Positions 26,528-41,273 of a stretch of 41,273 bases of DNA are shown in pieces. This DNA comes from a virus, in the IMG/VR virus record IMGVR_UViG_3300030382_002760, positions 1 to 41,273 of that record. One strand, written 5' to 3'. Numbering within the stretch: the first letter of the stretch is position 1; the number at the start of each line of letters is the position of its first letter. The notes under the pieces were generated by a model. That model made no database searches. It saw only the letters and a list, made by a program, of their open reading frames with translations, and was not told the origin of the DNA. The translations under genes were made by a program, and so were the position numbers.

Positions 26528-29107
26528 TTAGCCATCTAACGTCCTTCCTACTGTCCTTTCTGTGGGAATCACCAATCCACCCAACTCAGGTATAGGTGAT
26601 TCCATAATTACTCTCATTACCTCATCACACTCATCTGCCGTACTCTCGGGAAAGTCCATTATTAACTCATCGTGAATCTGACCTACTAGCATGTATCCTA
26701 TAGGTGATTTGTCTATCTTCAACATAGCTCTCTTGATAATACCTGCTGCTGTACCCTGTGGGTTCTGTGCCATAGACTTGTTATTATCAGCCCCAGGTAT
26801 ATCCCAGAACCACCTAATATTCCCCAATGGACCCTGCACATAGTGCTGTATCCTAGCTCTAGCTACCGTACTCACCTGCCATTTCTGTATCTTAGGAAAG
26901 AGTCCTAGTATATACCTCCGTAACTTAGCTGCTTCAGGCCATGAGGTGAATACTCCAGGGTTAGCTATATGCATGTTCTTCGGTCCCAATCCATAGCCTA
27001 TACCTAGCACACAGGTCTTGAACTTTTTATAGAGTACCTTGTCTTTCTTCTTTATCTTTTGTAGCACTGGTCCCAATGCAGGATCACCTATCTCAGGCAT
27101 TTTCTCACCTGTCTGCTTACCTGTGACCCATGCATAGATACTCAGTGCTGCTAGCTTCATGTAGTCCTCATCATCTGCGAAGTATCCCGTCAATACAGCT
27201 TCGATAGCGTTGTAATCCCTTCTATTGAGTACATGATTAGGACGAGCAGTTATTACCTGTCTAAACTTATGAGCCATCCGAGTCAGATCCTGTTCCTCAT
27301 CTCCTGGTTGTGTGATGTTCTGGAAGTTAGGATGCTTACATGATAGACGACCTGACCGTGGCTTGAGTGTCAGTATAGGGTGTATCATACCATTCTTCAC
27401 AGGCCATGCAGCGTAGGTACCCACCATCTTCTTGATCTCCCTATGTTGTATTGATATGGCATATACTCTACCTTTTAGTTCCTTTAAGAACTTCTTACCT
27501 GTAGTAGGTCGCTTAGTCTTATGGTCAACAGGTACCTCATCTCCTAAATGCATCATCAGTTTCTGCATCTGTTGAGTAGAGGTCTTGAAGGGGAGTATCT
27601 TGCAGTATCGTTGGGCGTACCATGACGGCTCACTTAGTACTTTCTCTCCAGTGAGTACCTGATATACACCGTAGGATAACTTACCCCCTTTCTCTATCTT
27701 CTTCTTTACTGTAGCTATCTCAGCCTCATTCAATGGAAAATCTCTAAGCACCATTCCTGTTGTATTTTTAGGTAGATTCTTATATCCCTCTAATGGGTGT
27801 ATGTTCTTAATGCCATCAGGTACTATATCTTGTAACTCAGCATCCACCTGTATCAGTTGCCTATCTAGTTCCTTTCTAAACTCATTGAGTGCCTCCTCAT
27901 CAATACATATACCCCTCTGCCTCATCTTCCACAGTACGTTAAGGGTCTCCACTACCTGCCACTGTGCTGCTTCTAGTAGCCTTCTCATCTCCAGTTCCTT
28001 ACATAGCTCCTCATAGAGATATACAGGTACCACAGCATCTATCCAGGAGTACCGTTCAGGTTCACTCTCTGATATAGACTTCCATTCTTCAAGTAGAAGG
28101 TTATCAAAATGAGATGCTATGTGAGATAGGGTGAGGGGTAGGTCAGAGTAGAGGAAGTGGAACAGCCAGCGTATGTCTACGATGTCCCCATTAACGGGGG
28201 AGTCATTAAATTCTAGACGAGGCATGTCAAAGAGATAACCATTGACACTTATTTTGGGGATTGGGGATTCGAGGATTTGTCGGGAGTAGGTGATAAACGG
28301 CTCTTGCCAAGGGACTGTAATTCCCCTAACAGTTTCCTCATCTCGGTAAGCGAAAGAAATCCTAATAATAATTGTTGATGTATCTGTCTCGTCAAGTGTA
28401 TCTTCAGGTCTGCCTTTAGAATACGGCGTCTCAATATCATAGGAAATGGGATTATTTTGGCTAATTGCTTCATTGGTGAAGGTCTCCATCTCTTGCGGTG
28501 AAGGGAATAGCTCATCCCTTGACGGTGAGGGGGTCAAGGTAGGCTCTTTACTAAGGGCTTTACGAATGTCCGTTAGGCAGGTAGGAATAAGCTGCATGTT
28601 TCCCTGCCTCAGATAAGATGGGTGATAGGTACTTATTACTCGTGCATTGTACTCATCACTCCTATATACATACCCTCTCTTGGTTGATATTCCTGTTTCA
28701 CCAGTGAATAGTTCTAATGGGATATTACCTAATGGAACTATGGTGTGTATATCATGCTCCCTCAGTATAGTATCCCTATGTATCTTACAGTGATCGACAT
28801 AGGCAGAGTTTAGGGTCACATGTCCACCAGGTACACGGCACTGTACTGTGTTAAATATGAGAAAGTCCTGTCTCTCTTTCCCAAGTAAACGGATAAGGCG
28901 GGTCAATACGAAACCCATTCTACCTGCGAAAGGATGTTTACCCCTTATCTCATCAGACTCTGGGCTTTCACCTATTAAGGCTACTCCGTTATCTCCTGTA
29001 CCTTCAGGGTGTACGATTCCAAAGCCCTTACTTTTTAGGTTAGGTTCCAAGGGACATCCCTTGCAAAGACTAGTATCTAATTTCATTGATTTGTATCTTC
29101 TGTTCAT
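26528..29107 (-). CDS. DNA polymerase I-type fused to a UDG-like Fe-S domain
   Basis: 859 residues. Residues 1-170 match a family-4-type uracil-DNA glycosylase: CxxC at 15/18, GESPESDE at 47-54, PFAGRMG at 59-65, Cys90 and Cys107 (16 residues apart, the spacing of the 4Fe-4S ligands) and HPSYLRQ at 162-168. A DEDDy exonuclease follows: D224/E226 (YDIET), D294 and Y353-xxx-D357. The family A polymerase has motif A NRRDYNAIEAV, motif B KFKTCVLGIGYGLG and motif C QIHDELIM (D813). The start (29107 or 29086) lacks a good ribosome site. It is the replicative enzyme of the phage. Confidence 0.93.
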   Translation of the reverse strand: MNRRYKSMKLDTSLCKGCPLEPNLKSKGFGIVHPEGTGDNGVALIGESPESDEIRGKHPFAGRMGFVLTRLIRLLGKERQDFLIFNTVQCRVPGGHVTLNSAYVDHCKIHRDTILREHDIHTIVPLGNIPLELFTGETGISTKRGYVYRSDEYNARVISTYHPSYLRQGNMQLIPTCLTDIRKALSKEPTLTPSPSRDELFPSPQEMETFTNEAISQNNPISYDIETPYSKGRPEDTLDETDTSTIIIRISFAYRDEETVRGITVPWQEPFITYSRQILESPIPKISVNGYLFDMPRLEFNDSPVNGDIVDIRWLFHFLYSDLPLTLSHIASHFDNLLLEEWKSISESEPERYSWIDAVVPVYLYEELCKELEMRRLLEAAQWQVVETLNVLWKMRQRGICIDEEALNEFRKELDRQLIQVDAELQDIVPDGIKNIHPLEGYKNLPKNTTGMVLRDFPLNEAEIATVKKKIEKGGKLSYGVYQVLTGEKVLSEPSWYAQRYCKILPFKTSTQQMQKLMMHLGDEVPVDHKTKRPTTGKKFLKELKGRVYAISIQHREIKKMVGTYAAWPVKNGMIHPILTLKPRSGRLSCKHPNFQNITQPGDEEQDLTRMAHKFRQVITARPNHVLNRRDYNAIEAVLTGYFADDEDYMKLAALSIYAWVTGKQTGEKMPEIGDPALGPVLQKIKKKDKVLYKKFKTCVLGIGYGLGPKNMHIANPGVFTSWPEAAKLRRYILGLFPKIQKWQVSTVARARIQHYVQGPLGNIRWFWDIPGADNNKSMAQNPQGTAAGIIKRAMLKIDKSPIGYMLVGQIHDELIMDFPESTADECDEVMRVIMESPIPELGGLVIPTERTVGRTLDG

Positions 29108-33778: not shown

Positions 33779-34156
33779 TTATTTATTTGGTGAGCCGAAC
33801 TGAAAGTTTTCGTGTAGTATTTTGAATAGCGGTTGCTCTAATCTCGTTACTAACTGCTCCTCTATATGATCTCCATCCACATACCCATCACTGTTACATA
33901 GACGGAAGGCTATATGTAATATCTCATGCAACAGTACGCTCCACTTCAACTCATTGGGTAGTGTCTTGTCAACTCTTATTATCTTAGTATCAAAGTCCAC
34001 CCCACCTAACAGTACCATACCAAACACCCTCTCTATAGTCTTTGGTGTCAACAGTTTAACCTTCCAGATATCACCATATACTGTCAGTGTAGTAGGAAAT
34101 TTCACCTTACTATTATAACAGGAAAAGGGGACCATCCGGTTATCATTTACTGCCAT
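33779..34156 (-). CDS. HExxH metallopeptidase-like protein
   Basis: 125 residues with HEILHIAF at 77-84 (HExxH at 77-81) preceded by NELKWSVLL, and a later acidic run DGDHIEEQLV (94-103) that could give a third zinc ligand. The pattern fits small SprT/ImmA-like metal peptidases of phages. The substrate is unknown. It has no signal peptide and is likely cytoplasmic, among DNA-metabolism genes. Confidence 0.65.
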   Translation of the reverse strand: MAVNDNRMVPFSCYNSKVKFPTTLTVYGDIWKVKLLTPKTIERVFGMVLLGGVDFDTKIIRVDKTLPNELKWSVLLHEILHIAFRLCNSDGYVDGDHIEEQLVTRLEQPLFKILHENFQFGSPNK

Positions 34157-34655: not shown

Positions 34656-35012
34656 CTATCTCCTCGTTTGAATCTCTTCCAAAATATCCTCAGCAGTACA
34701 CATAGACTCGTACCCTGCCCAGTTTTTGAGTTCTACTATGTGCTTGCATGGATCTTTGAAAGGATTGATTAGATTCTTCGGTCTACCTATGGTGAAATCT
34801 GGGCAGGTGCAGAGTATCAAAACTGTATCTTTTAGAAGTGTTACTAGCTCACTAGGGTTTTCATGGACAGTGATGTAATACTTACTCTTTATACTTCCCC
34901 ATGAATCCTTGAATGTAGTCTCATAACACTTTACTAAGTTATTTCCTAGCTTCTGGAACTGCATGGTGCTCCTCTCTACTGTAGATACTGGTATCTTTGT
35001 ACTTAGTCTCAT
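34656..35012 (-). CDS. SWIM zinc-finger protein
   Basis: 118 residues from ATG 35012 (or 102 from ATG 34964; both have acceptable ribosome sites). C68-x-C70 and C89-x-H91 (CTC and PCKH), 18 residues apart, make the CxCx(n)CxH pattern of the SWIM finger, a zinc-binding domain that often binds DNA or proteins. The N-terminal half is a small beta domain (YYITVHENPSE). The gene overlaps the preceding stop as ATGA. Confidence 0.75.
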   Translation of the reverse strand: MRLSTKIPVSTVERSTMQFQKLGNNLVKCYETTFKDSWGSIKSKYYITVHENPSELVTLLKDTVLILCTCPDFTIGRPKNLINPFKDPCKHIVELKNWAGYESMCTAEDILEEIQTRR

Positions 35013-35200: not shown

Positions 35201-35580
35201 AGTGCTACCAACCTTGTTACTGATTGGATGTTACCGTTAATATCCCTCAATGCTGTTGGTCCTGTATCAGGACAGTAGAACCGTGAGTACACTCCATACT
35301 TCTCAAGCTTCTGGAAATGTCTCATAGCCTCCAACACTAGAGAGCTTACAATGAAATGTGATCCTAATTTATCTATGTTAGGGGGTATAAACAGTTGTCC
35401 GAACTGTCTCTTAACTACAGTTATATCTACTCCTTCCGTTGTATTTAAATAAACATCATGAACCTTATCAAAATTCACTCTAGCTATCGAGCCAGAGGGT
35501 TCAAGCACTATTTCTTGATTATTTCCCCAGATATTCAAGGTGTGGGGGATTAGGTTCACTAACTTCGCTGGTACTTTCAT
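35197..35580 (-). CDS. Small beta-rich protein at the end of the ubiquitin-like cassette
   Basis: 127 residues. The opening LVNLIPHTLNIWG...EIVLEPSGSIARV resembles a widespread phage and bacterial small-protein pattern (NLTPH... PSG.VARV) of unknown function. The rest alternates strands and short helices, with a single Cys (YCPDTG). It starts with AAGGAG seven bases upstream and overlaps the E1-like gene by 62 bases. Its place directly after the cassette makes it a candidate substrate, adaptor or specificity factor. Confidence 0.55.
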   Translation of the reverse strand: MKVPAKLVNLIPHTLNIWGNNQEIVLEPSGSIARVNFDKVHDVYLNTTEGVDITVVKRQFGQLFIPPNIDKLGSHFIVSSLVLEAMRHFQKLEKYGVYSRFYCPDTGPTALRDINGNIQSVTRLVAL

Positions 35581-36244
35581 CGTTCTCCTTCCATAACACT
35601 GTCCGTGTACCAGTATGGTAGATTATTTCCCTACATAGAGTACCCTCTCTTAGAAAGCGGGCTATAGCCTCGGCAATTAGGGAACCTATAGCAAACCCTA
35701 CATAGACTACTTGCTGTCCAGTACACGGTAACGTTGAGCTATTCCTATCGTCATGCCACATGGTCTCCCAATACACCTGATGCCGAGGCTTCTGCGGTAC
35801 TAAGGTATAGAGCTTTATTAACTCACCTCCTAACCTACCATCAATGATTAGAGAGACCTCATTTCTACGTCTACAGTTTTCAAATATTACCTGTCGTGAT
35901 GCCATCGAGTCAACAGCAGCTACTACTATACCGCTCAGTTCTGTGTGATTATTCACTTTCTCTGTAGTGGAGCGTATATCTGTATCACCTACTACATCCT
36001 TAAGCATAGTCTCCAGTGTCAGTGCTTTGTATGATCCTATATTCCTAGGTCCATACAGTTGACAGCCCACATTCTCCTCTTCAACTACATCATCATCCCA
36101 TAGCCTCAACTTATCTAGACCCATCTTAGCTAGGCACAATGCAGTCCATGATCCGATACCCCCACACCCTACGATGTGGACAGGGGGGTTAGACATGAGA
36201 CCAGGGTTGTAGAAATCCAAGCTCCGTGAATTCATCATCATCAT
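35519..36244 (-). CDS. E1/ThiF-like adenylating enzyme
   Basis: 241 residues from ATG 36244, chosen for GAGGAGG nine bases upstream (the frame is open from ATG 36271). The Rossmann nucleotide loop is GCGGIG (26-31), followed by DDD at 50-52, NVGCQ at 58-62 where ThiF/MoeB have N-x-x-R-Q, D112 in AAVDSMASR, and the probable catalytic Cys174 in LPCTGQQ with the following GSLIAEAIARFL helix. The enzyme should adenylate the ubiquitin-like C-terminus and pass it on as a thioester. It lies after the JAMM gene (overlap of 56 bases). Confidence 0.88.
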   Translation of the reverse strand: MMMMNSRSLDFYNPGLMSNPPVHIVGCGGIGSWTALCLAKMGLDKLRLWDDDVVEEENVGCQLYGPRNIGSYKALTLETMLKDVVGDTDIRSTTEKVNNHTELSGIVVAAVDSMASRQVIFENCRRRNEVSLIIDGRLGGELIKLYTLVPQKPRHQVYWETMWHDDRNSSTLPCTGQQVVYVGFAIGSLIAEAIARFLREGTLCREIIYHTGTRTVLWKENDESTSEVSEPNPPHLEYLGK

Positions 36245-36878
36245 CAGTAATTTCCTCCTCGATTGGTTCATCCTTGGTTAGAAACTTCGACCCGTCTGCC
36301 AGATAATACTCCGTAATTCTACTCCCCTTCTTTTTCTTCCAAGTACATCTATCACTAAATTCACTGTAAGAATTAACACCCCGATTACTATATAGTCTCC
36401 TTTCTACCTTTTCTTCTACCTCTTTGCGTACCTTCTCAATGGCATCCTCAGTAGTAATCACTCTTGTAGTTACATCCTGTCTCATAGGTATGGGGACAGC
36501 AGTATCCACTCTCCCTATCATAGACCCGTATACATTCACTTCAATGGACACGAACCAGTCATAAAAGTTAAGTAAGGCTTCAATAGCCTCCTCGTCCTGA
36601 CCTGACCAAAAGGTACTATTCTTCCCATGACTGTGCCAGAACAATTTCAACTTCTCCTTCTGCTCGTCATTGAGTTCGGCTATTAACTTATACAACCCCT
36701 CGGTTATATCGGCTGATCCCACGCATGCTTCCTGTTCCACCAGGATTACATCATCTACAAAGATATGTTCATCTTCAATAGTGACATACCCCAGTCCACC
36801 TACCTCACCACTATATGGTTCAGCGGCATGGGCATAGGCCATTAACTTCTCATACACTTCAGTTCTTAAACAGATCAT
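36189..36878 (-). CDS. JAMM/MPN+ isopeptidase-like protein
   Basis: 229 residues. E25 in GEVGGLG and H82-x-H84-x7-S92-x2-D95 (WHSHG...SGQD) are the full catalytic zinc set of JAMM proteases, which remove ubiquitin-like proteins from targets. The domain covers about 1-150; a charged C-terminal region follows (EKVRKEVEEKVERRLY) and ends in an acidic stretch (EEEITDDDDEFTE). It overlaps the E2-like gene by four bases and the E1 gene by 56. Because the ubiquitin-like protein already ends in AG, deconjugation is more likely than precursor processing. Confidence 0.9.
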   Translation of the reverse strand: MICLRTEVYEKLMAYAHAAEPYSGEVGGLGYVTIEDEHIFVDDVILVEQEACVGSADITEGLYKLIAELNDEQKEKLKLFWHSHGKNSTFWSGQDEEAIEALLNFYDWFVSIEVNVYGSMIGRVDTAVPIPMRQDVTTRVITTEDAIEKVRKEVEEKVERRLYSNRGVNSYSEFSDRCTWKKKKGSRITEYYLADGSKFLTKDEPIEEEITDDDDEFTELGFLQPWSHV

Positions 36879-37945
36879 AAGTTTTCCTCTCTCTCTCTTT
36901 CACATTCATTACATTCACAGTCCTCGTCATAATCTCCTTCACCGTGACCGTCCCTTTCAAATTGCTCGTGATAATCCTCCTGCATTATTTGGGTGTTGCG
37001 TTTATAGGTATCAGGATTCTTGAACCTCAATGGTTCACCCCATCTATTCATAGTCGAAACAAAGGGAGCACCACTCGGATACCATACCTCTAGGAATCCT
37101 ATGCATGTAGAGATTATTCCACATAGGTTCCAGTTCTTATTCATATCCATTACAATAGTAGCTAGGTTGCCCCAACAGGGCTGACCAGACATGGATACAT
37201 GGGGATGGCAGAAGCCTTCTAAGATAGGGTGGTATCTAGCGGTGACTCGGTTCATGGTTATATCCAAGTTCTCCTTAGCGAGATCAATGGATACTCGAAT
37301 AGATCCTAGATTCCTATAGTCACAAATGATTGGTTTCAATACTACATCTAGAAATCTATCCTCTCTGATTGAGACAGATCTAACCTTCTTTAATTTGTAG
37401 ATTCTCTCTATCTCATTCTCTATATTTACTTCTATCTGCTCTTTCTGTAACTCCAACAGTTTGACGGTAGTTACGGCTAGATTCCTTTCATTGATACGGA
37501 TACATTCGTAACTGCTGGTAATGGACTCTTCATACCTTCTTATTTCCTGCCTACATTCCTCCGTAATTCTAGCCTGTCGTGTTGCTATCCTTCTTTCAAT
37601 AGGAGCAAGGTTCATGAAGTTTATGGCCTTACTTATCATGTCCACTAAATCTCTATTTCTTTCCTCGCTTTCTTCCCCTATATAGATAGTATGACTATCA
37701 GGATTAGCGGAGATGTCTGTCCCTGTATTAGGGACAAACTGTCCGTAGTCATGGGGATATCCAACGTGCAGTATTTTTGTTAACACTTGAGGATAAATAC
37801 CCTGCTCCTCTTGTAACCTACCATACTCTAGGTCTGTATTGTCAGGCATGACAGGTCGATAGAGGAGGGGGCCATGCTTTTCAGTCACAGCCCCCAACAC
37901 AGCGGCACTCACCCCACAACGATAATCAAGGCGTGAGTACAACAT
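36875..37945 (-). CDS. E2-like ubiquitin-conjugating-type protein
   Basis: 356 residues. The segment GFCHPHVSMSGQPCWGN (244-260) carries the E2 signature: HP(N/H) followed by SG and the active-site Cys, here Cys257, with a following W and hydrophobic helix (GIISTCIGFLEVW) and PSGAP. The preceding 200 residues hold an N-terminal domain (1-90), a coiled coil (about 110-190) and strands that could form the E2 sheet. The C-terminus is acidic with CECNEC. Most E2s are about 150 residues, so the extra N-terminal region may recognise substrates. A copy of the 17-bp palindrome lies in the coding region. Confidence 0.75.
   Translation of the reverse strand: MLYSRLDYRCGVSAAVLGAVTEKHGPLLYRPVMPDNTDLEYGRLQEEQGIYPQVLTKILHVGYPHDYGQFVPNTGTDISANPDSHTIYIGEESEERNRDLVDMISKAINFMNLAPIERRIATRQARITEECRQEIRRYEESITSSYECIRINERNLAVTTVKLLELQKEQIEVNIENEIERIYKLKKVRSVSIREDRFLDVVLKPIICDYRNLGSIRVSIDLAKENLDITMNRVTARYHPILEGFCHPHVSMSGQPCWGNLATIVMDMNKNWNLCGIISTCIGFLEVWYPSGAPFVSTMNRWGEPLRFKNPDTYKRNTQIMQEDYHEQFERDGHGEGDYDEDCECNECEREREENL
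37719..37735. repeat. Dispersed 17-bp palindrome, copy 3 (in the E2-like gene)
   Basis: GTCCCT GTATT AGGGAC lies inside the reading frame of the E2-like gene, encoding part of VPNTGT. The arms are the same as in the intergenic copies. Coding constraint may explain the arms, so this copy is weaker evidence for function. Confidence 0.65.
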
Positions 37946-37952
37946 GCGTTAT

Positions 37953-38195
37953 TTACCCCGCTTTAACTTGAGGAACCACAGTCACTTCGTCCTTATCTGC
38001 AACTGTCGTACTATCCAGTTGAGAGTTCGGGACAACCTCACCGTTATGCCTCACTTGAATGTCCCCGGTGATCTTGATCTTCCCATTAAGAACATCAACG
38101 ATGGTACCGTTTTCATCTCGAAGGGTCACGGGACCACTCTTGGCTTGATTAGTAGCGATTGTAAGTTCTACTACTTTCTGATTCTCAATAATCAT
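37953..38195 (-). CDS. ThiS/ubiquitin-like beta-grasp protein
   Basis: 80 residues from ATG 38195 (GGAG ten bases upstream; the frame is also open further up). The C-terminal half (VRHNGEVVPNSQLDSTTVADKDEVTVVPQVKAG) has the ThiS/MoaD order: strand, NGEVVP turn, a helix or loop, DKDEV and a final strand. The protein ends in AG, leaving a terminal Gly free for adenylation. The N-terminal half has two strands. It is the first gene of the cassette, seven bases before the E2-like gene, and should be the modifier that the E1-like enzyme activates. Confidence 0.8.
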   Translation of the reverse strand: MIIENQKVVELTIATNQAKSGPVTLRDENGTIVDVLNGKIKITGDIQVRHNGEVVPNSQLDSTTVADKDEVTVVPQVKAG

Positions 38196-38218
38196 GTTTT
38201 TAGCACTCCTTATAAGGT

Positions 38219-40354: not shown

Positions 40355-40975
40355 CTAGGCTACCTTTTTGGTACCTTTACGGGTCGTCTTTTTGGCCACC
40401 TTTTTGGAGACCACAGTGCGAGTTTTTGCGGTTGCCTTGCGGGCTTTAAGGGGGGCCGTGTAACTCTCCAGCCCTTTGTCCATCTTCTGTTCGAAGGCTT
40501 CCTCAGGAATATGACGACGAACAATGCGCATGATGTCTTCCCAGGGTGTCTCCTGTTCTGAGCACACGTCCAACAAGATCCCTAAAAATTGATTCATGAG
40601 GAGATTGGCACGCATTTGACGTTCAGGGGTTTTCCCTTTTCCCTTGGTCGTCTTTTTGGCCTTGGAGCATCGAGACAAAGCGTTTTCGAAGGAGCGGTAA
40701 ACGCTGTTCCCTTTGTAGCCCTTAACCTTCCCTTTATCGTCCCTGTTGTACGGGAGAGCAGGATAGATACAGCGCACAAAGTTCACTTGAGAATAATTGG
40801 AGTGCGCTTTGTGGAACGTTTCCCAGGCTTGCACTACGTTCCGCCATGCTTGCATCCGAATCTCTTTATCCATGGCATCAAAGAAGGTGGAAGCTGTAGT
40901 CAGTGTTGCCACTACTCCCTTGGGAGCGGTGTAGTTGAGTTTAGCTTGTTTAGCTATCTTATCTCGAAGTTTCAT
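40355..40975 (-). CDS. Lysine-rich protein with histone-H1-like tail
   Basis: 206 residues from ATG 40975 (TTG 41026 would add 17; GGGAG lies 12 bases before the ATG). The N-terminal 150 residues are helical and basic (WRNVVQAWETFHKAHSNYSQ, ANLLMNQFLGILLDVC). The last 40 residues are a Lys/Ala/Thr tail (KVAKKTTRKGTKKVA) like histone-H1-type or bacterial nucleoid proteins. It probably binds DNA and could compact or shut down host DNA early. It is the first gene of the minus arm, and its start lies in the terminal repeat. Confidence 0.65.
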   Translation of the reverse strand: MKLRDKIAKQAKLNYTAPKGVVATLTTASTFFDAMDKEIRMQAWRNVVQAWETFHKAHSNYSQVNFVRCIYPALPYNRDDKGKVKGYKGNSVYRSFENALSRCSKAKKTTKGKGKTPERQMRANLLMNQFLGILLDVCSEQETPWEDIMRIVRRHIPEEAFEQKMDKGLESYTAPLKARKATAKTRTVVSKKVAKKTTRKGTKKVA

Positions 40976-41030
40976 CTGGTCTCTTTTCTCCCTTGCGGGT
41001 GTTGTGAGACCATGCCAGCTATTCAAAGAA

Positions 41031-41166
41031 CCCCTAGTACGCTAAACCCGGTTAAAGGATGAGCGTACCCCAAGATCCTATCATCAATCGGGTGGGTGAT
41101 CAAGAGCTAATGGCTATGCTGGCCCATTCGTCCAGGGGTGAAAATAAACGTCCCTAAATTAGGGAC
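41031..41166. ncRNA. Structured element in the terminal repeat (right copy)
   Basis: The same helices as at 71-207. The stem at 41036-41043/41062-41069 differs from the left copy at two base pairs, and both sides change so that pairing is kept (39/66 A-U and 41/64 G-C in place of G-C and A-U). The outermost pair is lost (A-C). The third stem has one mismatch here. The stem conservation supports a real fold. Confidence 0.5.
41150..41166. repeat. Dispersed 17-bp palindrome, copy 6
   Basis: GTCCCTAA A TTAGGGAC, perfect palindrome, at the end of the structured element in the right terminal repeat. The left copy (191-207) has a different loop (TAATC), so the two variants differ at the loop and agree in the arms. 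Confidence 0.8.
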
Positions 41167-41273
41167 AACTAGGTAGGGCTTTGGGTATTTTGCCGGAGGT
41201 ACTTTTTGCATGGTCTCTCTCAAGCCGAGACCCCCCTACCCCCCTACAACAGAGGAAAATTTATGGGCCGGAC

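Follow-up and report, generated by a model that had tools for sequence, protein, structure and literature searches.

Bacteria are known to use ubiquitin-like conjugation as a weapon against phages. In the Bil operon, BilA contains two ubiquitin-like (Ubl) domains, BilB bears a CEHH motif and BilD joins an inactive and an active adenylation domain (IAD and AAD) to a Cys domain of ~80 amino acids (aa) (PMC11354881). The E2 of operon type 6d is without the upstream His and keeps the downstream one (PMC1779556). Phages themselves have Ubl and JAB domains in their tail modules, as in lambda TAPI/TAPK (PMC1779556). Here we describe four intact, coupled open reading frames (ORFs) on the minus strand of a virus genome, encoding a Ubl, an E2-like protein, a JAB (JAMM) protease and an E1. 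This cassette occupies positions 35519-38195 of IMG/VR record IMGVR_UViG_3300030382_002760, analysed over its whole stretch of 41,273 nucleotides (positions 1 to 41,273; hereafter the window). The four genes very probably form a self-sufficient, reversible ubiquitin-like conjugation operon; a forward and reverse pathway carried by a phage would reverse the role in which such conjugation is known. In the literature searched, no paper was found to describe a phage with a full Ubl cassette; the primary Bil/Bub papers and preprints lay outside that search, so a prior description is possible.

The four-gene locus and its relatives

In the direction of transcription the gene order is Ubl-E2-JAB-E1. 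Ubl and E2 are separated by a gap of 7 nucleotides (nt), E2 and JAB overlap by 4 nt (ATGA) and JAB and E1 by ~56 nt; the E1 start with the best ribosome-binding site falls inside the 3′ end of JAB. The original prediction, made from the DNA letters, had proposed four adjacent minus-strand genes of these kinds that overlap or nearly touch and form one unit, and the ORFs were indeed found at that place and on that strand with the spacing given above. The residues it had singled out are also present (E2 Cys257; E25, H82, H84, S92 and D95 of the JAMM enzyme; GCGGIG of the E1; the AG end of the Ubl), the catalytic ones being near-invariant over 100 viral loci. Its numbering of the E1 cysteine as Cys174 is right for the ATG supported by a Shine-Dalgarno (SD) sequence; in the longest ORF the same residue is Cys183.

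Hand-made motif patterns were needed to find relatives of the cassette. Neither the window E2 nor the window E1, scanned as a single protein against IMG/VR, found any, and tblastn of the window E2 against annotated phages gave no match. A DNA pattern for HPHV.M.G..CWG retrieved two IMG/VR contigs with the same gene set, to which an E2 profile added a third. An E1 DNA pattern retrieved 116 stretches, and profile searches of the retrieved loci yielded 100 non-redundant viral E1s (90% identity). Most loci were obtained through the E1 motif, which guarantees an E1 in them but not the other three genes beside it. All four genes occur in 22 of the 27 viral loci with adequate flanks. The commonest viral orders are Ubl-E2-JAB-E1 (21, the same as in the window) and E2-JAB-E1-Ubl (19). 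Profile matches to JAB, E2 or Ubl in the related viral loci (1.15 Mb) number 303, of which 296 lie ≤3.5 kb from an E1 and in every case on its strand; the linkage therefore exceeds chance.

With tblastn, distant homologues of the E1 were located in crAss-like, Flavobacterium and Xanthomonas/Erwinia (~227 kb) phages. Because the E2 family escapes single-sequence searches of Pfam, NCBIfam, PADLOC and PHROGs, annotated phages show the system as nothing more than a lone ‘thiamine biosynthesis protein’, the label that these E1s bear where they are annotated. In the crAss-like phage cr111_1 and in FpV4, JAB lies directly upstream of E1 and is preceded further upstream by a protein with the pattern H-S-H...C-[LI]-G; the link of this crAss/Fpv protein to the E2 family is weak (35%, P 4e-4). 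A Ubl candidate in crAss-like phages was set aside, as hhalign gave no support for it.

Proteins of the cassette

The E1 matches Pfam ThiF at 8e-21, and its family profile retrieves ThiF (3e-16) and Uba1 (2e-15), together with UBA3, MccB and Cap2. The window protein is a single ThiF domain of 241-250 aa containing the GxGGxG, ATP-site D/N/K and Cys features of E1/ThiF enzymes; the usual NxxRQ lacks its Arg. Among the viral E1s, D59, D61, N67 and Q71 are conserved in 100/100, K82 in 99/99 and Cys183 (174) in 92/93.

The JAB protein matches Pfam Prok-JAB at 1.1e-5, beyond the curated cut-off, and its profile finds RPN11 as the best PDB match (5e-4), and JAMM1 too. The isopeptidase signature E ... 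HxH(x7)SxxD is present in the window protein, and its residues do not vary over the viral loci (E 82/82, H 84/84, H 84/84, S 84/84, D 85/85). Such invariance would also suit counter-defence, in which the cassette interferes with host Ubl immunity (Bil/Bub, type II CBASS Cap2/Cap3) by means of a decoy Ubl, competing charging or removal of tags by JAB. Phages are indeed restricted by host Ubl conjugation (PMC10097602, PMC11153139; for Bil, PMC11354881). A pure deconjugase or inhibitor would, however, need no complete and conserved forward pathway, and >97% of relatives retain the cysteines of E1 and E2; the architectures of the phage E1 and E2 are also unlike those of Bil and CBASS. We consider counter-defence improbable.

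Searched as a single sequence, the Ubl gave sub-threshold matches to ThiS (1.8e-4) and SAMP1 (2e-4); the best PDB match of its profile is SAMP2 (7e-7). The AlphaFold2 (AF2) model has a mean predicted local distance difference test score (pLDDT) of 77 and the beta-grasp order, the fold that had been predicted for this 80-residue protein. Foldseek places ThiS, SAMP1 and MoaD at the top (best E 1e-3), with ubiquitin lower down. The model thus identifies a beta-grasp ubiquitin-like protein with a small Gly-type tail, here AG. In the aligned viral relatives the C-terminal pair is GN in 58, GG in 16, AG in 7 and GA in 4 (residue −2: G 78, A 7; residue −1: N 58, G 23, A 4). Gly-Asn accordingly makes up 58 of 85 viral ends, and several genes carry extra residues beyond the pair; the Asn may be either the true conjugating residue or trimmed off. 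From non-redundant loci, 13 of 79 Ubl genes score 2-4 Ubl domains in a tandem, ‘polyubiquitin-like’ arrangement, one (L011) having three copies. The tandem genes and trailing residues therefore suggest a maturation role for JAB in these relatives. The window Ubl ends at AG and needs no processing, so the JAB there would act mainly as a deconjugase.

The Ubl and the E1 are nearest to ThiS, SAMP and ThiF, as would be expected of a sulfur-carrier pathway (ThiS/CysO-like) in which a thiocarboxylated carrier, loaded and released by E1 and JAB, would serve biosynthesis or RNA/DNA thiolation, comparable with CysO/MoeZ/Mec+. Clusters of JAMM, ThiS/MoaD-like and E1-like genes are described in sulfur metabolism (Iyer 2006, PMC1779556). 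Such a pathway is nevertheless very unlikely here: conserved alongside the other three genes is a dedicated E2 whose active Cys is invariant, tandem Ubl precursors are ill-suited to a carrier and no rhodanese or sulfur-transfer gene was recognised among the scanned genes.

Comparison of all PDB sequences with a profile built from 67 phage E2 cores gave 57 matches (E≤5), of which 56 are ubiquitin E2s or E2-containing fusions. These are mutually homologous and hence not independent votes, but the enrichment is extreme. The best E-value is 0.047, and HPH is aligned on HPN and Cys on Cys. Alignment of the phage E2 with yeast Ubc4/Rad6/Ubc13 (yeast sequences entered by hand) by hhalign gave a probability of 91% and P 1.3e-6 over 116 columns, against <0.3% for control alignments with the profiles of the other three phage proteins. 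Of 73 non-redundant viral E2s in the alignment, 72 keep the active Cys. Within the core alignment of 67 rows, His fills the third HPH position in 100%, Pro is found in 92%, the first His in 77% and Gly two residues after the Cys in 97%; the HPN Asn is replaced by His in the window E2 and in all 67 aligned relatives. HPH lies upstream of the Cys in 51 of 72 viral E2s, that of the window included. The profiles support assignment of the 356-aa protein to the ubiquitin E2 (UBC) superfamily, with a predicted UBC core, HPN-type motif and active Cys.

CxnC-rich tails are found in 19 of the 51 E2 relatives that have tails. We note that Cys-rich, zinc-finger-like tails are fused to the E2s of L012, L018, L075, L106, L003 and other loci, possibly as substrate- or E3-like modules. 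In another locus (L040, 7912-13826, minus strand) about six tandem E2-like ORFs precede a single JAB and a single E1.

Genome context and distribution

The cassette forms the upstream end of a replication/recombination module on the minus strand of a podovirus of ~41 kb, with UDG-PolA (uracil-DNA glycosylase and DNA polymerase A), Sak4-like, exonuclease and helicase-like genes downstream on the same strand. The plus strand carries the late module (~3-20 kb: terminase, portal, major head and internal virion genes), in agreement with the earlier claim of an early region apart from tail genes. This arrangement bears on a role in virion assembly, in which structural proteins would be processed by a Ubl/JAB pair, the function proposed for lambda TAPI/TAPK. 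The presence of Ubl and JAB domains in phage tail modules (PMC1779556) is in favour of the idea, yet the cassette sits in the early module opposite the late one, and neither E1 nor E2 is part of TAPI/TAPK; we regard this role as most improbable.

Clustered same-strand neighbours at the other cassette loci include PhoH (13 loci), DnaB (10), single-stranded DNA-binding protein (8), SbcC (6), helicase (6), Sak4 (5) and primase (4). The E1-homologue loci of crAss-like phages, Fipvunavirus and large Xanthomonas phages are near uracil-DNA glycosylase (UDG), primase or exonuclease genes. UDG genes also occur near the cassette-like loci of cr111_1, FpV4 and Dulem virus 41. The small SWIM zinc-finger gene of the window (Table 1) was considered as a conserved cassette partner and rejected, a motif search having found it beside no other cassette.

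Both ends of the window share an imperfect direct repeat, and the genome, classed as linear, is therefore probably near-complete. Relatives of its TerL and Pol include ANMV-1 and a virus assigned to Methanomicrobiales.

Table 1 Features of the window and tandem Ubl genes of related phage contigs
Feature	Position	Strand	Details
Ubl gene	37953-38195	-	80 aa; ATG at 38195; SD AGGAG 38206-38210; C-terminus ...PQVKAG
Ubl C-terminal Ala-Gly	37956-37961	-	predicted adenylation/conjugation end
E2-like gene	36875-37945	-	356 aa, HPHVSMSGQPCWGN; central coiled coil, then UBC-like core
HPH motif of E2	37199-37207	-	E2 residues 247-249; HPN equivalent
Predicted E2 active-site Cys257	37175-37177	-	lines up with active Cys of Ubc4/UBE2L3
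Cys cluster CECNEC	36902-36919	-	in E2 tail
JAB/JAMM gene	36189-36878	-	229 aa; E25, H82, H84, S92, D95
JAMM catalytic Glu25	36804-36806	-	
JAMM zinc motif HSH...S..D	36594-36635	-	H82-D95
E1 gene	35519-36244	-	241 aa from ATG 36244; SD GAGGAGG 36254-36260; longest ORF starts 36271
E1 nucleotide-binding GCGGIG	36152-36169	-	
Predicted E1 catalytic Cys174	35723-35725	-	Cys183 of longest ORF
SWIM zinc-finger protein	34656-35012	-	small; Pfam 6e-5; few genes downstream of E1
Protein with HEILH motif	33779-34156	-	125 aa; metallopeptidase-like motif
UDG-PolA fusion	26528-29107	-	N-terminal uracil-DNA glycosylase domain + DNA polymerase A
Imperfect direct terminal repeat	1-295 and 40961-41273		273/295 bases identical; copies diverged
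Tandem Ubl genes in phage contigs	L011 10540-11208; L010 10354-10764; L058 4991-6142; L125 5229-5870; L092 10543-11175		

A first scan of cellular genome contigs with the E2 profile confirmed no relative. The E1 pattern then identified 65 cellular loci (L128-L192), most with JAB, E2 and Ubl neighbours, and a phage-only distribution was dropped. These loci belong to Myxococcales, with several copies per genome, Methylomirabilota, Chloroflexi, candidate phyla bacteria and archaea. Some of the Myxococcales loci presumably adjoin a primase-like or Cas4-like gene, recognised by reading the sequences. Nearly all the contigs come from metagenome-assembled genomes, so some that are labelled cellular may be viral. 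A plasmid search gave nothing beyond two partial ThiF matches. On the E1 tree (FastTree, with many weak branches) virus and cell labels interleave with 17 changes, at least six of them forced by well-supported branches, thus pointing to exchange between viruses and cells.

That cellular relatives exist, some beside mobile-element-like genes, would fit an anti-competitor or superinfection function in which the phage tags proteins of rival phages. Bacterial Bil reportedly acts on phages in this way (Hor et al. 2024). The conserved neighbours are, however, replication genes, and none of the genes recognised beside the cassette is an immunity gene; a function of this kind seems unlikely.

Proposed mechanism

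By analogy with the families involved, we expect with high confidence a cycle of adenylation, thioester relay, isopeptide transfer and deconjugation. The E1 would use ATP to adenylate the C-terminal residue of the Ubl and hold it as a thioester on Cys174 before it is handed on to Cys257 of the E2. The E2, directly or via its coiled coil and Cys-rich tail, would then place the Ubl on an amine of target proteins. The JAMM enzyme would strip the tag, and would also mature the precursors of those relatives with C-terminal extensions or tandem Ubls.

Several observations weigh against such an operon. The window E2 as a single sequence has no significant match in Pfam, NCBIfam, PHROGs or PADLOC (best PHROG 0.009), and the AF2 model of the full-length protein, built from a 4-sequence alignment, is poor (pLDDT 46). 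The model contains a helix, four strands, the Cys loop and helices in a UBC-compatible order; Foldseek found no significant match for it. The assignment of the E2 fold rests on sequence profiles because this model failed, and it is the profiles that support the original prediction of an E2. The window E1 lacks the HNxPNQ of most relatives, position 69 being G where 95 of 100 have P, and it sits on a long branch of the E1 tree. The frequent Gly-Asn ends of the Ubl family are unusual for an E1 substrate, no E3 was recognised and the replication linkage might reflect merely the clustering of early genes.

Because the linkage to DNA replication genes is conserved, we lean towards a function early in infection, at the replication stage, rather than in the virion. 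We only tentatively suggest that the tag acts early, on DNA replication/recombination proteins or on interfering host proteins. An equally tentative extension is that an autonomous Ubl pathway linked to replication operates in many divergent phages and in some cellular genomes or mobile elements. With a distinctive HPH-type E2 family and single or polyubiquitin-like modifiers, often Gly-Asn-ended, it would be a viral equivalent of the ubiquitin system for controlling phage or host replication proteins.

The cassette suggests that viruses of prokaryotes control proteins through tagging, and modifiers encoded in tandem or ending in Gly-Asn are relevant to the origin and variation of ubiquitin-type systems. 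Isolated phages with a homologous E1 (crAss001, Flavobacterium phage FpV4 and Xanthomonas phage PhiXhv-12; JAB is also present in the crAss-like and Flavobacterium phages) make the pathway testable.

Comparison with known systems

Bil (BilABCD) shares with the window cassette the four functions, the order Ubl-E2-JAB-E1, a stand-alone E2 and a JAMM protease. Its Ubl is matured by JAB, and the tandem Ubl genes of the phage relatives imply a counterpart. In contrast to Bil, the window has one Ubl, an HPH...Cys E2 and a single ThiF-like E1 domain of ~220-240 aa, and the set occurs in many phages. The window E2 does not have the CEHH of Bil in place of an HPN-type motif, nor does the window E1 have the inactive and active adenylation domains and separate Cys domain of the Bil E1. 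The likeness to Bil and cyclic-oligonucleotide-based antiphage signalling systems (CBASS) drawn in the original prediction thus stands as a functional analogy only, because the phage E2 is without CEHH, an HPN-type motif is present and the E1 is single-domain.

Type II CBASS Cap2/Cap3 and 6A-MBL are anti-phage E1-E2 systems with a homologous E1 domain and a JAB. E1 and E2 are fused there (Cap2), whereas they are separate genes in the window; no CD-NTase was found among the scanned cassette neighbours.

We take the 6d operon type to be the same as PRTRC. In both, Ubl, JAB, E1 and E2 are likewise on separate genes; the phage E2 differs in retaining the upstream HPH. Against the PRTRC models, window proteins match PRTRC_ThiF at 1.3e-14 (54 bits, cut-off 145) and PRTRC_A at 0.014 (15 bits, cut-off 102); the PRTRC B and C models gave no match, and no other PRTRC protein was recognised in the window.

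The archaeal SAMP/UbaA/HvJAMM1 pathway is alike in its Ubl, that of the phage being nearest to SAMP2, in a ThiF/UbaA-like E1 and in a JAMM deconjugase. No E2 is known for SAMP conjugation, whereas the phage operon has a dedicated, usually paired E2.

Among phages, lambda TAPI/TAPK differ in being without E1 and E2, in lying in another module and in giving no significant sequence match. The crAss-like phages and FpV4 have a homologous E1 and JAB in the same order as the window. A large Xanthomonas phage has a homologous E1 and an E2 that joins the phage profile, with no adjacent JAB. Judged on its predicted proteins, the phage set is one that works like Bil, 6d and CBASS, yet falls outside each of them by their defining features.

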